Shown here one piece after another: positions 22,371-27,514 of a DNA stretch of 64,000 nt. A model generated the notes under the pieces. It had not been told where the DNA came from and searched no databases. It worked only from the letters and a program-made list of their open reading frames with translations. Origin of the DNA: Burkholderia cepacia ATCC 25416. GTDB lineage: Bacteria > Pseudomonadota > Gammaproteobacteria > Burkholderiales > Burkholderiaceae. The stretch is from positions 2,852,001-2,916,000 of the forward strand of contig NZ_CP012982.1 of NCBI RefSeq assembly GCF_001411495.1, given 5' to 3'. The stretch's first letter is position 1. Each line of letters begins with the position of its first letter. The translations under genes were made by a program, and so were the position numbers.

Positions 22371-23267
22371 TCACCTTGGCGCGGTTTCGCCGGACAGGAA
22401 CGCGACGAATTCGCGCGTGTACTTCGGCAGCGCGTCGAACGACCGCGCGCACAGCTTCAGGCGGCGGTGGCTCCATGGATCGGACAGCTCGACGAGCCGC
22501 ACGTCCATTGTCTGCATCGCCCGTTCGGCCGCATGGCGCGACACGATGCCGATGCCCACGCCGCTGGCGATCACGCGGCAGATCGCATCGAAGCTCTTCA
22601 ACTGCACGCGGTAGCGGATCCGCTTGCCGAGCGCGCGTGCCTGGTCGGCGAGATGCACCTGCAGTGCGCTGCCGTCGGTGAGGCCGATGAAGTCGGCGTC
22701 GGCGATCGTGTCGAATGCGACCTTGTCGTGTGACGCGAGCGGGTGCGCGGCCGGCACGACGACGATCAGCCAGTCCTCGCGGAACGGCTTCTGTTCGAGC
22801 CCGCCGAGGCCGACCGAATCGGCGACGATGCCGACCTCGGCCGTCTTGTTGCGGATCGCATGCACGATCTCCTGGCTCGAGCGCTCCTCGACGCTGATCG
22901 ACAGCTTCGGATGATGCGGCAGGTAGTCGGCCAGCGCGTCGGGCAGGTATTCGCTCAGCGACGCCGTGTTGCACAGCAGCCGGATATGCCCGCGCAGCCC
23001 CTGGCCGTATTGCTGCAGTTCGCCGCGCATGTGGTCGATCTGCTGCAGCACGGTGCGCGCGTGGTGTTCGAGCGCGCGGCCTGCGTCGGTGGCCTGCGCG
23101 CCCGACTTGGTCCGGTGCAGCAGCGGTACGCCGAGCTCGTCCTCCATGCCGCGGATGCGCTCGCTCGCGGCCTGCAGCGTGATGTGGGTCCGCTCGGCGC
23201 CGCTCGTGATCGTGCCGGCCTCGCAGATGTTCAGGAAGAGCCGCAGGTCGGTCAGGTCGAAGCGCAT
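22371..23267 (-). CDS. LysR-type regulator
   Basis: The 298-residue protein begins MRFDLTDLRLFLNICEAGTITSGAERTHITLQAASERIRGMEDELGVPLLHR, a LysR helix-turn-helix with Ala-Ala in place of the common Ala-Val, as in the group including CbbR-like orphan regulators. Its effector domain spans about 95-295. It is divergent from a 36-residue membrane peptide gene, and a 17-bp palindrome lies between them. The target is unknown. Confidence 0.88.
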   Translation of the reverse strand: MRFDLTDLRLFLNICEAGTITSGAERTHITLQAASERIRGMEDELGVPLLHRTKSGAQATDAGRALEHHARTVLQQIDHMRGELQQYGQGLRGHIRLLCNTASLSEYLPDALADYLPHHPKLSISVEERSSQEIVHAIRNKTAEVGIVADSVGLGGLEQKPFREDWLIVVVPAAHPLASHDKVAFDTIADADFIGLTDGSALQVHLADQARALGKRIRYRVQLKSFDAICRVIASGVGIGIVSRHAAERAMQTMDVRLVELSDPWSHRRLKLCARSFDALPKYTREFVAFLSGETAPR

Positions 23268-23328
23268 GATGGGTGGGGGCGATCGCATTGGAATGGCCGA
23301 TAAGTTAGCAGGGAACCGCGGCCGGGGT

Positions 23329-23789: not shown

Positions 23790-24650
23790 ATGAAATCGCA
23801 CGAGATTCACCGTCACGCGGCGTGGCTGCCGGGCCTGGCCGCCGTGCTCGTCATGGCCGGTTGTGCAAGCACGCAGTCCGTTCCGCCGAGCGACACGCTG
23901 GCGGCACAGTCGTTACCGTCGAGCCCGCCGGCCGTTGCGCCGGCGGCTGCCACCCCGCCTCCCGCGCCGATTCTCGTCGCGCAGAAGTACGTCGTGAAGC
24001 GCGGTGACACGCTGACGGGCATCGCGTCCGCGAACGGCTGCAGCATTGCCGACCTGCGCACCTGGAACAAGCTCGGCGCGAACGGCAGGCTGCGCATGGG
24101 GCAGGTGCTGCGCATCGTCAGGCAGCAGCCGTTGCCGCCGCCGGGCGCGGCCGGCGTGCAGGTGGCCGCCTCGTCGGCTGCGAGCAATGGCGCGGGGAGC
24201 AGCCCGGCATCGGCGCAGGCCACCGCGTCGACCGCGAGCGACCGTCAGGTCGTCAAGGAAACGAAGCGGCATGCAGGCGGTGTCGCGCTCAAGTGGCCCG
24301 CCAACGGCAAGATCGTCGACGGGTTCCGGCCGGGGCAGAACCGCGGCATCCAGATCGCCGGCCGGCCGGGCGACCCGGTCCGCGCCGCGGCCGACGGCCG
24401 CGTGATGTACGCCGGCACCGGCCTGAACGATTACGGCAGCCTGATCATCGTCCAGCACAACGCGGATTTCCTGACCGCCTATGCGCACAACCGCAAGCTG
24501 CTCGTGAAGACGGGCGACATCGTGCGCCAGGGCGACGAGATAGCCGAGATGGGCGACCTCGACAACTCGCGCGTCGCGTTGCTGTTCGAAGTGCGGCGCG
24601 ACGGCAAGCCGGTCAATCCGATGCCGTACCTGCCTTCGTCGCAAGGGTGA
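23790..24650 (+). CDS. NlpD-like LysM/LytM lipoprotein with degenerate metal site
   Basis: The 286-residue lipoprotein has a signal ending VLVMAGC (Cys at about residue 23), a Pro/Ala-rich spacer, a LysM peptidoglycan-binding repeat (YVVKRGDTLTGIASANGCSIADLRTWNKL, about 68-96) and a C-terminal LytM/M23 domain. The zinc ligands of active M23 peptidases are missing: the first motif reads GIQIAG instead of HxxxD, and the last reads ALLFEV instead of HxHFE. This matches NlpD/EnvC-type proteins that activate cell-wall amidases without cutting peptidoglycan. A beta-lactamase homologue follows 219 bp downstream, echoing the nlpD1-penA arrangement known from B. pseudomallei. Confidence 0.88.
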   Translation: MKSHEIHRHAAWLPGLAAVLVMAGCASTQSVPPSDTLAAQSLPSSPPAVAPAAATPPPAPILVAQKYVVKRGDTLTGIASANGCSIADLRTWNKLGANGRLRMGQVLRIVRQQPLPPPGAAGVQVAASSAASNGAGSSPASAQATASTASDRQVVKETKRHAGGVALKWPANGKIVDGFRPGQNRGIQIAGRPGDPVRAAADGRVMYAGTGLNDYGSLIIVQHNADFLTAYAHNRKLLVKTGDIVRQGDEIAEMGDLDNSRVALLFEVRRDGKPVNPMPYLPSSQG

Positions 24651-24694
24651 GGCCGGGTCGTTTCGCTGGAACGTGGCGGCGGTCGCTGCTACGC

Positions 24695-24710
24695 TAGGGC
24701 CTGTTCATGC
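24695..24710. repeat. Left copy of an inverted repeat bracketing the beta-lactamase-like gene
   Basis: TAGGGCCTGTTCATGC here matches the reverse complement of 25792-25807 at 15 of 16 positions. It lies between the NlpD-like stop and the beta-lactamase-like start. Confidence 0.6.
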
Positions 24711-24869: not shown

Positions 24870-25769
24870 ATGGAACACTCTCCGACACGCCGCTCGCTGT
24901 TGCTTGCCGCCGTGGCCGCGCCGTTCGTGGCCGCGTGCACTTCCGCGCCGGTCGCCGACCAGGGGCGCGCCCACGCCGCCCAGGCCGAATTGACCGCGCT
25001 CGAGAAGGCGTCGAATGGCCGGCTCGGTGTCGCCGCGCTCGATACGTCGAACGGCGTGCGCATCGCGCACCACGCGCGCGAACGCTTCCCGCTGTGCGGC
25101 ACGTATGCGGTCGTCGCGGCCGCCGCGATGCTCGCGCGCGGCTCGCTCGACGCGTCGCTGCTGCCGCGCCGGATTCTTTACCGCCGCTATGAAATCGTGT
25201 CGGGCTCGCCGGTCACGGAAAGCCACGTCGACACGGGCATGACGATCGAGCAGCTGTGCGTGGCGATGCTGCAGTCGGGCGACAAGGGGGCCGGCAACCT
25301 GCTGATGGGCGTGCTGGGCGGCCCGCAGGCCGTCACGTCGTTCGCGCGCGCGAGCGGCGACACGTCGTTCCGCCTCGATCACTGGGAACCCGAACTGACT
25401 CACGCGGCGCCCGGCGACGAGCGGGACACGTCGACACCGGTCGCGATGATCGACACGCTGCAGCGGCTGGTGCTCGGCAATACGCTGCCCGAACCGCAGC
25501 GCGCGCAACTGACGGAATGGATGGTCGGCGGCGCGCGCGGCGCGACCGGCATCGCGGCGGGCGTGCCGCCCGGCTGGCGCATCGCGGACAAGGCCGGCAC
25601 GGGCGGTTACGGCACGACGACCGACGTCGCGGTGCTGTGGCCGCCGTCGCGTGCGCCGATCGTGATGGCCGTGTCGTTCACGCAGCCGCAAGCCGCGGCG
25701 GCGGCCCGCGCGGACGTCGTCGCGTCGGCGGCGCGCATCGTGGCGGGCGCGCTCACCGCGACGGCCTAG
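24870..25769 (+). CDS. Class A beta-lactamase homologue with lost catalytic residues (pseudoenzyme)
   Basis: The 299-residue frame is intact and clearly PenA-like: twin-arginine lipoprotein signal (TRRSLL...VAAC, lipidated Cys23), HWEPEL, PGDERDTSTP and the C-terminal GGYGTT.DVAVLWPP strand. With a constant offset of 7 from Ambler numbering, the active site is changed at almost every step: Ser70 is Gly77, Lys73 is Ala80, Ser130 is Gly137, Asn132 is Lys139, Asn170 is Thr177 and Thr235 is Ala242. Glu166 (Glu173), Lys234 (Lys241) and Gly236 remain. Without the nucleophile it cannot form an acyl-enzyme and should not hydrolyse beta-lactams. There is no frameshift or stop. It could be a ligand-binding relic, a muropeptide sensor, or an early pseudogene. 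It lies within an inverted-repeat pair. Confidence 0.9.
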   Translation: MEHSPTRRSLLLAAVAAPFVAACTSAPVADQGRAHAAQAELTALEKASNGRLGVAALDTSNGVRIAHHARERFPLCGTYAVVAAAAMLARGSLDASLLPRRILYRRYEIVSGSPVTESHVDTGMTIEQLCVAMLQSGDKGAGNLLMGVLGGPQAVTSFARASGDTSFRLDHWEPELTHAAPGDERDTSTPVAMIDTLQRLVLGNTLPEPQRAQLTEWMVGGARGATGIAAGVPPGWRIADKAGTGGYGTTTDVAVLWPPSRAPIVMAVSFTQPQAAAAARADVVASAARIVAGALTATA

Positions 25770-25791: not shown

Positions 25792-25807
25792 GCGTGAACA
25801 GGCCCTA
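25792..25807. repeat. Right copy of the inverted repeat; also the 3' arm of a possible hairpin
   Basis: GCGTGAACAGGCCCTA is the inverted counterpart of 24695-24710, with one mismatch. Its last seven bases (GGCCCTA, 25801-25807) can also pair with TAGGGCC at 25767-25773, which includes the stop codon of the beta-lactamase-like gene, so the repeat may also serve as a transcript end. Confidence 0.55.
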
Positions 25808-25913: not shown

Positions 25914-26786
25914 ATGCACCGACTTCCGCCCCTGCACGCACTGCAGATCTTCTCGACGGTGGCCCGCCACCGCAGCTTCACCCGCGCGGCCGAGCAGCTG
26001 TGCGTCACGCAAGGGGCGGTGAGCCGGCAGATCCAGACGCTCGAGGCGCATTACGGCTTTCCGCTGTTCAAGCGGCATGCGAAGGGCCTCACGCTGACGG
26101 CGGAAGGCGAGCAGTTGCTGCCGGTCGTCAACGAGAGCTTTGCGCGGATCGAGGACATCTCGATGAAGCTCACGCGGCAGCGCACCGATCTCGCGCTGAA
26201 AGTGCCGACCTGCGTGATGCGCTGGATGCTGCCGCGCATCATGCGCTTCCAGGACGAGCATCCCGATCTCCACGTGCAGATCACGACCGCGTGGCAGCAC
26301 GTCGTCGATTTCTCGACCGAGCCGTTCGACGCGGCGATCGTCTACGGCACGTCGCCGGGCGCGGGCGTGTTCGCGCTGCCGCTGTTCGACGAGCGGCTGA
26401 CGCCCGTCTGCGCGCCCGAATTGCGGCAGACGTCGCCGCTCGACTCGGTCGGCGACCTGGTGCGTCACACGTTGCTGCATCCGACCCGCGACCATCGCGA
26501 CTGGCGCGCCTGGCTCGATTACGCGGGCGAGCGCGGCGTCGATCCCGCGCGCGGGCCGACGTTCGACACGCTCGATCTCGCGACGAACGCGGCGATGCAG
26601 GGCTTGGGCGTCGCGGTCGGCGACGTGACGCTCGTCGACGACGACGTCAGCGCGCGCCGGCTCGAACGACCGTTCGACCTCGTGCTCGAGACGGGCGCGC
26701 GCTACTTCTTCGTCTATCCCGAGAACATCGGCAACCAGCAGAAGATCCGCGCGTTCAGCGACTGGATCGCGCGCCACCGCGACTGA
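25914..26786 (+). CDS. LysR-type regulator of the GcvA/AmpR group
   Basis: The 290-residue protein starts MHRLPPLHALQIFSTVARHRSFTRAAEQLCVTQGAVSRQIQTLEAHYG, the N-terminus typical of GcvA, AmpR and PenR relatives, with effector domain features such as VPTCVMRWMLPRIMRFQDEHPDL. AmpR/PenR proteins sense muropeptides and control beta-lactamase. Here the gene lies downstream of, not divergent from, the beta-lactamase homologue, so direct control is not implied by layout. It is 144 bp after that gene. Confidence 0.88.
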   Translation: MHRLPPLHALQIFSTVARHRSFTRAAEQLCVTQGAVSRQIQTLEAHYGFPLFKRHAKGLTLTAEGEQLLPVVNESFARIEDISMKLTRQRTDLALKVPTCVMRWMLPRIMRFQDEHPDLHVQITTAWQHVVDFSTEPFDAAIVYGTSPGAGVFALPLFDERLTPVCAPELRQTSPLDSVGDLVRHTLLHPTRDHRDWRAWLDYAGERGVDPARGPTFDTLDLATNAAMQGLGVAVGDVTLVDDDVSARRLERPFDLVLETGARYFFVYPENIGNQQKIRAFSDWIARHRD

Positions 26787-26852: not shown

Positions 26853-27188
26853 TCACTGGTATGTCACGACCGCGATCATCGGTGCGTGATTGTTGCCGGG
26901 ACGGCTCGGTAAAACGATTGCGCGCGAGGCCTGAGTAAAGGTCGTGGTCTTGATCGCCTGCTGGCTCGCCGCGTCGACGAACGCGATCTGGCCGGTTGCC
27001 GGGCGCGGACAGTCGGCGCGTACGCGCCCATTGGCGAGATCGGGCGTATCGAGCGCGAACGAGCAGGGCGGCTCGACGATCATGCCGGAGAAGTGGATGA
27101 TGCCGGACGCGCCGGCGGCGAAGGACGAGGAAGTGGCCAGAAGCGAGGCAGCCAGGGCGAACGAGGCGGCGATATGGCGGTGCTTCAT
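26853..27188 (-). CDS. Small type 1 fimbrial-like subunit (orphan)
   Basis: The 111-residue protein has a signal peptide (HIAASFALAASLLATSSSFA) and a short domain starting GIIHFSGMIVEPPCSFAL, the N-terminal pattern of FimA-type pilins, with a second Cys in RADCPRP. It is shorter than a normal pilin (about 150-180 residues) and has no chaperone, usher or other pilus gene nearby. GGAG precedes the ATG at 27188. It may be a free-standing periplasmic relative of fimbrial subunits, common as orphans in Burkholderia by recollection. Confidence 0.75.
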   Translation of the reverse strand: MKHRHIAASFALAASLLATSSSFAAGASGIIHFSGMIVEPPCSFALDTPDLANGRVRADCPRPATGQIAFVDAASQQAIKTTTFTQASRAIVLPSRPGNNHAPMIAVVTYQ

Positions 27189-27514
27189 GACAGGCTCCAT
27201 ATAGGAAGCGCGTCGCAGCGGGGCCGCTCGGGTGGCAGTCCGTCAACGCCGCGATGCTGTATGCGTAAACGGCAAAACCATTGGGCCTCTTGAATGAAAA
27301 AATCGAAATAATGACTATAGGCAAACGATTGCGAATTGCTTGAATCAATGTAGGCCGAATCTGCGCAATCGCAAGTCAGGGAAAAGCCGGGGGGATAAGA
27401 TCGAACGGCGAACGGTCGTCGCGACCGTTGTGCGGGCAACGGCCTTGCGCCGTCCGGAAAGCAAAACGCCGCTCGTCTCGAGCGGCGTTTTGCGTTGGGG
27501 CGAAGATGCGCCGT
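27189..27514. other. Intergenic region with AT-rich promoter zone
   Basis: About 27290-27360 is distinctly AT-rich relative to its surroundings and lies upstream of the fimbrial-like gene, as expected for its promoter. The rest contains the terminator hairpin of the GlsB-type gene. I see no further gene. Confidence 0.45.
27461..27493 (-). terminator. Rho-independent terminator of the GlsB-type gene
   Basis: A perfect 15-bp stem (arms 27461-27475 and 27479-27493) with a 3-nt loop is flanked by AAAA/TTTT in the arms and followed on the minus strand by GCTTTCC. It begins 22 bp after the stop at 27515. The symmetrical A/T ends may let it work on both strands. Confidence 0.85.

Follow-up and report, generated by a model that had tools for sequence, protein, structure and literature searches.

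The window, meaning the whole 64,000-nucleotide stretch of DNA that was analysed, carries penA*, a full-length class A β-lactamase homologue without catalytic residues, directly behind nlpD1. The genes of the locus and the features of penA* (residues in Ambler numbering where stated) are as follows.

22371–23288, minus strand: a further LysR regulator, lying upstream of nlpD1 (present at 47 of 55 loci; start codon picked by eye)
23790–24650, plus strand: nlpD1, a LysM and degenerate LytM/M23 protein of the amidase-activator type, directly upstream of penA* (start codon chosen by eye)
24870–25769, plus strand: penA* (P0001), 299 residues, from sequence and orthologue comparison
24870–24938, plus strand: signal peptide region with twin arginines R7 and R8 and a lipobox ending at Cys23, from sequence
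25098–25109, plus strand: the former SxxK, now GTYA, Ambler 70–73, from motif reading and 53 orthologues
25203–25205, plus strand: Gly112, Ambler 105, from 53 orthologues compared with 64 active-type genes
25278–25286, plus strand: the former SDN, now GDK, Ambler 130–132, from motif reading and 53 orthologues
25386–25400, plus strand: omega-loop EPELT, Ambler 166–170, with Glu166 retained and Thr170 private to the window genome among 53 orthologues
25548–25550, plus strand: Gly227, Ambler 220 (Arg in active-type paralogues), from 53 orthologues compared with 64 active-type genes
25590–25598, plus strand: the former KTG, now KAG, Ambler 234–236, from motif reading and 53 orthologues
25914–26786, plus strand: a GcvA-like LysR regulator, the downstream neighbour of penA* (55 of 55 loci), which is not PenR
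26853–27200, minus strand: a small protein adjacent to penA* and its neighbours at all 55 loci, faintly similar to fimbrial subunits (top score 19.5 bits, cut-off 203)

The PenA* protein of the window has the class A fold, belongs to this sequence family and passes a curated NCBIfam cut-off. It departs from the active class A motifs at Ser70-x-x-Lys73, Ser130-Asp-Asn132, Glu166-x-x-Leu-Asn170 and Lys234-Thr-Gly, and it also lacks Tyr105 and Arg220. The first-pass annotation of this DNA had described a full-length frame that keeps the scaffold and has Ser70, Lys73, Ser130 and Asn132 replaced, with Asn170 changed to Thr, Thr235 changed to Ala, and Glu166 and Lys234 retained; our comparison confirmed an intact homologue of 299 residues, in which EPELT and KAG are read directly. 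Residues M1, R7, R8 and C23 were invariant across 15 aligned sequences, and based on these signal motifs PenA* is predicted to be exported by the Tat route as an outer-membrane lipoprotein. We considered whether the downstream LysR protein could be PenR and rejected this assignment, as it scored 171.4 bits with the PenR model NF041130 against a cut-off of 625.

For the orthologue comparison, we surveyed 65 Burkholderia genomes, one per species, and identified a PenA* orthologue in 53 of these (63–100% identity), none of which is interrupted. Residues S70, K73, S130, N132 and R220 are absent from all 53. Position 70 is occupied by Gly in 51 and Ala in two, position 73 by Ala in 52 and Thr in one, position 130 by Gly in 50, Asp in two and Asn in one, and position 132 by Lys in 50, Arg in two and Gln in one, with Asp131 present throughout. 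Position 105 is Gly in 51 orthologues, Glu in one and Asp in one, compared with Tyr in 59, Trp in three and Ser in two of the 64 active-type genes; position 220 is Gly in 53/53 PenA* and Arg in 64/64 active-type genes. E166 is retained in 53/53 orthologues, N170 in 52/53, K234 in 47/53 and T235 in 7/53. Position 235 is otherwise Ala (38), Ser (2), Arg (2), Gly (2), Ile (1) or Tyr (1) and, along with position 216, is loosely held. All nine residues (S70, K73, S130, N132, E166, N170, R220, K234 and T235) are kept in each of the 64 other PenA/PenB-type genes, a set that includes neither a partial match in G057 nor six more remotely related class A genes. Each of the 53 PenA* genomes also contains a second class A gene in which none of the nine catalytic-motif residues is lost. 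Like PenA* elsewhere, the gene in the window lies directly behind nlpD1, in a genome that has a separate PenB-type class A gene. A loss confined to this strain, with SxxK, SDN and KTG intact in close relatives, was one outcome that the first-pass annotation named as fatal to its reading. We rejected strain-specific loss because the same losses occur in 53/53 orthologues and none retains these motifs; the exception is Thr170, which is found in the window genome, the other 52 orthologues having Asn170.

Gene order was compared at 55 loci, some of which come from the same genome. penA* is followed by the downstream LysR gene in all 55 and has nlpD1 before it in 53; the remaining two represent a single contig end that was sampled two times. 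Of the eight loci at which the upstream LysR gene was missed, four are contig ends and four come from B. guangdongensis and Burkholderia sp. lig30, each of which is represented twice. Counted by genome, NlpD1 is at the locus in 52 and the downstream LysR in 53 of the 53 PenA* genomes. Across the 65 genomes, the slot behind nlpD1 holds PenA* in 53, an active-type PenA in nine (G013, G014, G016, G020, G027, G035, G038, G042 and G050) and no gene in two, which leaves G057, an assembly 82% complete. The nine catalytic-motif residues are intact in all nine slot PenA proteins. The downstream LysR was confirmed in six of these nine genomes; it was not found in the available flanking DNA of G042 and G050, and G038 was not covered. 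In the two empty slots (G024, locus L206, and G052, locus L205), nlpD1 is followed by ∼120 bases and then the LysR gene, so the PenA* protein is dispensable there. Elsewhere, both genomes have an active-type class A gene that branches deeply and is accompanied by a divergent LysR. A LysR with 36–38% identity to the LysR of the window stands divergently next to the second class A gene at 11 of the 12 loci with enough flanking sequence.

The gap between nlpD1 and penA* contains a block, TCGCTGCTACGCTA (24683–24696), that ranks with the best-conserved intergenic bases across 53 loci and is possibly a promoter. Inverted repeats are present in this gap; in a search for an attenuator hairpin as in B. 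pseudomallei, neither a T-run terminator nor a sigma-70 consensus was found there. A 12-mer, AGGGCCTGTTCA, lies at 24696–24707 on the plus strand, ∼170 bases before penA*, with an inverted copy at 25795–25806 on the minus strand just behind the stop codon. The upstream copy is exact in 8 of 53 loci (window counted) and has one mismatch in 19. Behind penA*, a search of 170 bases at the 53 loci, allowing up to three mismatches, found the element in the window genome only, on a stretch that is not common to the other loci. Seven exact copies occur in the genome.

Selection on penA* was estimated with the Nei–Gojobori method on the mature part of the protein in the same 53 genomes, a simple counting method for which synonymous sites in GC-rich genes may themselves be constrained. 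The median dN/dS of PenA* was 0.237 (1,378 pairs), compared with 0.332 for the second class A gene (53 genomes), 0.334 for NlpD1 (52 genomes) and 0.106 for the downstream LysR. The value for PenA* was below that of the second class A gene in 1,064 of the 1,378 matched pairs. Because these pairs are non-independent, we also used 26 disjoint pairs, in which the summed ratio was 0.241 for PenA* and 0.300 for the second gene, PenA* being lower in 18. The difference is modest, and PenA* is far less constrained than the downstream LysR. A whole-gene first pass had given 0.226 for the 53 PenA* against 0.372 for 61 of the 64 active-type genes, slot PenA included. PenA* is under purifying selection and is maintained intact, showing none of the stops, frameshifts or relaxed selection of a pseudogene. 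The proposal of a maintained pseudoenzyme, which the first-pass annotation had set against random decay and had tied to dN/dS and to shared substitutions across species, is therefore upheld on both counts, and random decay is rejected by the absence of interrupted copies among 53, the losses shared by 53/53 and the median of 0.237. That PenA* has been correctly identified, is catalytically inactive and is maintained we regard as close to certain.

Two further explanations concern why the frame stays open. In one, PenA* is a redundant copy drifting slowly since the arrival of PenB; the two empty slots and the loose positions 235 and 216 would fit this, but the intact frames in 53/53 genomes, a dN/dS below that of the second gene and replacements that are near identical across species make it very improbable. 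In the other, the frame is held open by an antisense frame or by co-translation within an operon rather than by the protein. A 275-residue antisense frame does span penA*, but such long frames are common in high-GC DNA, its translation matched no Pfam family and the amino acids of the sense frame are constrained, and we find this explanation scarcely credible.

To place PenA* among its relatives, we scored 7,997 database candidates and examined the best 120 of 1,297 homologues. With the window this gave 121 rows, of which 28 are clade members without S70, K73, S130 and N132 and 93 have S70, K73 and S130, P0038 among the latter having Ser at 132. No intermediate keeping only some of the motifs was seen among these best 120 and the window, the motif check having left out 43 more distant loci (L161–L203). 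In 299 genomes of the family, 39 matches reached E ≤ 1e-97, 38 of them in the genus. The sole match outside it, G317 (57%), has intact motifs. A tree was built from 73 hand-picked rows (26 of 53 PenA*, 9 of 9 slot PenA, 20 of 55 other PenA/PenB-type, 16 of 93 other-genus and 2 of 6 further class A sequences). PenA*, including the protein of the window and the named Bcc orthologues, forms one clade with support of 100/100 and a stem of 0.39 changes per column. This clade groups beside slot PenA with moderate support (92/66), and the second-gene type stands apart at 88/92. The tree requires catalysis to have been lost, apparently, only once, on the branch leading to the PenA* clade, and the simplest history is one origin and a burst followed by slower change. 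The most divergent PenA* relatives (L057, L058 and P0023–P0027) vary at positions 73, 132, 220 and 234, with examples such as Thr73 with Gln132, Ser73 and Asp220, and are the most informative members on how the pocket changed.

The upstream neighbour also has a degenerate active site. At four canonical places of the M23 active site, NlpD1 is substituted in 52/52 orthologues (Asn; Gln in 51 and Glu in one; Ala; Leu in 51 and Ser in one), and the His of a third motif is kept in all 52. Loss of M23 residues is expected of an amidase activator. Together with the losses in PenA*, these substitutions mean that the operon pairs two dead enzyme folds. In the portions of PMC6045580 available, B. pseudomallei NlpD1 is described as lacking the residues that bind zinc and as probably activating an amidase, and nlpD1 and penA as co-transcribed in that species; in B. 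thailandensis, according to the accessible part of PMC9426598, penL is driven by a separate promoter under BesR control and the response of nlpD1 differs. Evolutionary rates of PenA* and NlpD1 are correlated (partial r 0.53, 0 of 500 permutations as high). This correlation is not specific, because it is matched by NlpD1 and LysR (0.51, 0/500) and in part by PenA* and PenB (0.32, 0/500). A tie between PenA* and NlpD1 is suggested by gene order.

Of the 265 alignment cells for the former side chains at positions 70, 73, 105, 130 and 220, 260 hold Gly, Ala, Ser or Thr, so the cavity has been emptied in the same way nearly everywhere. The idea of the pocket as the conserved core of PenA* is not supported, as its 26 columns show no more conservation than columns drawn at random (2,288 of 5,000 draws as low); eight core columns are weakly more conserved than random (394 of 5,000). 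Residues that are fixed in PenA* and variable in active-type genes cluster at Ambler 86–100 (L86, D87, L96, R98, R99 and Y100), with 415 of 20,000 random draws as clustered for a segment length of 15 chosen after the list was seen. The neighbouring loop is the docking site of inhibitor proteins on class A enzymes. The conservation pattern weakly favours a surface rather than the pocket.

PenA* structures have been public since 2016: PDB entries 5ihv and 5hx9, titled β-lactamase, are PenA* orthologues without the catalytic serine. The B. ambifaria structure 5IHV (E 1.8e-149) has the same GTYA, GDK and KAG as the protein of the window. The accessible sections of a 2025 structure survey (PMC12073871) describe 5IHV at 1.10 Å, with the conformation of the catalytic core kept and the pocket formed; a bound ethanediol supplies the contacts that disappeared with Lys73, and the substitution that gives Lys132 has very little effect. 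These observations weaken the idea that Lys132 stands in for Lys73.

The pocket bears on two alternative roles. The first-pass annotation had suggested a pseudoenzyme that perhaps binds wall fragments or β-lactams; the pseudoenzyme stands, and the evidence on binding is divided. PenA* might hold β-lactams, stem peptides or another small ligand uncleaved and act as a sink or sensor, for which the intact fold and omega loop, the nearly always small side chains and PDB entries whose titles describe S70G class A mutants with bound lactams can be cited. In active enzymes, β-lactams are held by Ser130, Asn132, Arg220 and Thr235, of which the first three are gone from 53/53 PenA* and Thr235 from 46/53, and the pocket columns behave like random ones. 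Moreover, Somprasong et al (2020; PMC7157819), in the text available, report that PenA* was not induced by meropenem, imipenem or ceftazidime and that penA* deletion in B. ubonensis had no effect on amoxicillin susceptibility. The open pocket of 5IHV with its bound diol leaves room for such a role and led us to raise our estimate slightly, although we still consider it unlikely. Alternatively, PenA* could be a different enzyme, in which a water at Glu166/Asn170 and the charge of Lys132 act on another substrate with no serine nucleophile. In its favour, Glu166 and Asp131 occur in 53/53 orthologues, Asn170 and Lys or Arg at 132 in 52/53, and the long stem with slow change after it would suit a newly gained role. 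However, the window has Thr in place of Asn170, one clade member has Gln at 132, Lys234 varies, and Glu166 and Asn170 may persist for the omega loop alone. Since ethanediol, and not Lys132, makes the Lys73 contacts in 5IHV (PMC12073871, as far as its accessible text goes), we lowered our estimate of this already improbable reading.

As a whole, we favour with moderate confidence the explanation that the gene is the Bcc penA* and that its product acts without catalysis at the envelope together with NlpD1; the partnership with NlpD1, taken alone, we put forward only tentatively. penA* is the Bcc positional counterpart of the active PenA that occupies the nlpD1 slot in the B. pseudomallei group and in certain other species. 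A PenB-type gene would have taken over the antibiotic work, and the copy in the nlpD1 slot would then have kept only a non-catalytic envelope job that the folded lipoprotein already did. Most likely, the protein would serve the NlpD1 amidase-activating pathway as a partner that binds or scaffolds, through its surface and not through catalysis. A bolder version, which we find doubtful, would make nlpD1-penA* an operon of two dead enzymes, a zinc-less LytM and a serine-less class A protein, that jointly steer an amidase as outer-membrane lipoproteins; PenA of the B. pseudomallei group would do the same job in addition to hydrolysis, and in the cepacia lineage each of the two jobs would have gone to a separate protein, PenA* or PenB. 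If the favoured explanation is true, a resistance enzyme has a second, non-catalytic envelope role that outlived its chemistry, and PenB, PenA and PenA* form a natural set separating catalytic and non-catalytic roles.

The discovery of PenA* is not new, as it was named by Somprasong et al (2020). The available text of PMC7157819 lists the lost motifs in five species, credits the first note of them to a B. multivorans study, describes the conserved nlpD1 order and states that why bacteria maintain PenA* is not yet known to its authors. It also reports that B. ubonensis PenA* expressed in E. coli allowed no growth on ampicillin and did not hydrolyse nitrocefin. Judged by titles, no paper on PenA* function appeared among those naming the 2020 study. 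The 27 database clade members among the best 120 of 1,297 homologues are named "class A beta-lactamase" (20), "beta-lactamase class C" (3) or are unnamed (4); with the NCBIfam pass, these names mean that Burkholderia β-lactamase counts can be inflated by this protein. Our additions are the genus-wide count, the comparison of selection with a paralogue in the same genomes, the three slot states, the apparent single origin, NlpD1 as a dead peptidase fold, the Thr170 of the window genome and the loss of Arg220.

In comparison with the PenA* of the 2020 study, as far as its accessible text describes it, the copy in the window has the same slot behind nlpD1, the same losses of SXXK, SDN and Y/W105, the same K(T/R/A)G, the same Tat and lipobox signals and a PenB elsewhere in the genome; among the 53 loci, it differs by Thr170 and its own stretch behind the stop codon. 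Arg220 is named there, in the same text, for active enzymes only, whereas its loss from PenA* was counted here. The structure survey (PMC12073871) places 5IHV in an inactive group of two structures (GKN subgroup) unable to perform catalysis and, in the sections available, is structural, without genome context or function; 5IHV keeps Asn170, whereas the window has Thr170. PenA/PenL/PenI of the B. pseudomallei group differ in keeping all nine residues (9/9 slot genes). The window genome's second class A gene (PEN Bcc type, C2:2480066–2480992) shares the class A scaffold at 52% identity but has intact motifs and falls in its separate clade; it scores 602.7 bits with NF000320 blaPEN-Bcc, above the cut-off of 540, and 635.6 with NF041138 blaPenB, below the cut-off of 685. 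Amidase activators of the NlpD/EnvC type have a fold unrelated to PenA*, and NlpD1, as a dead fold with a predicted use as an activator, would offer a parallel for the role that we propose for PenA*.
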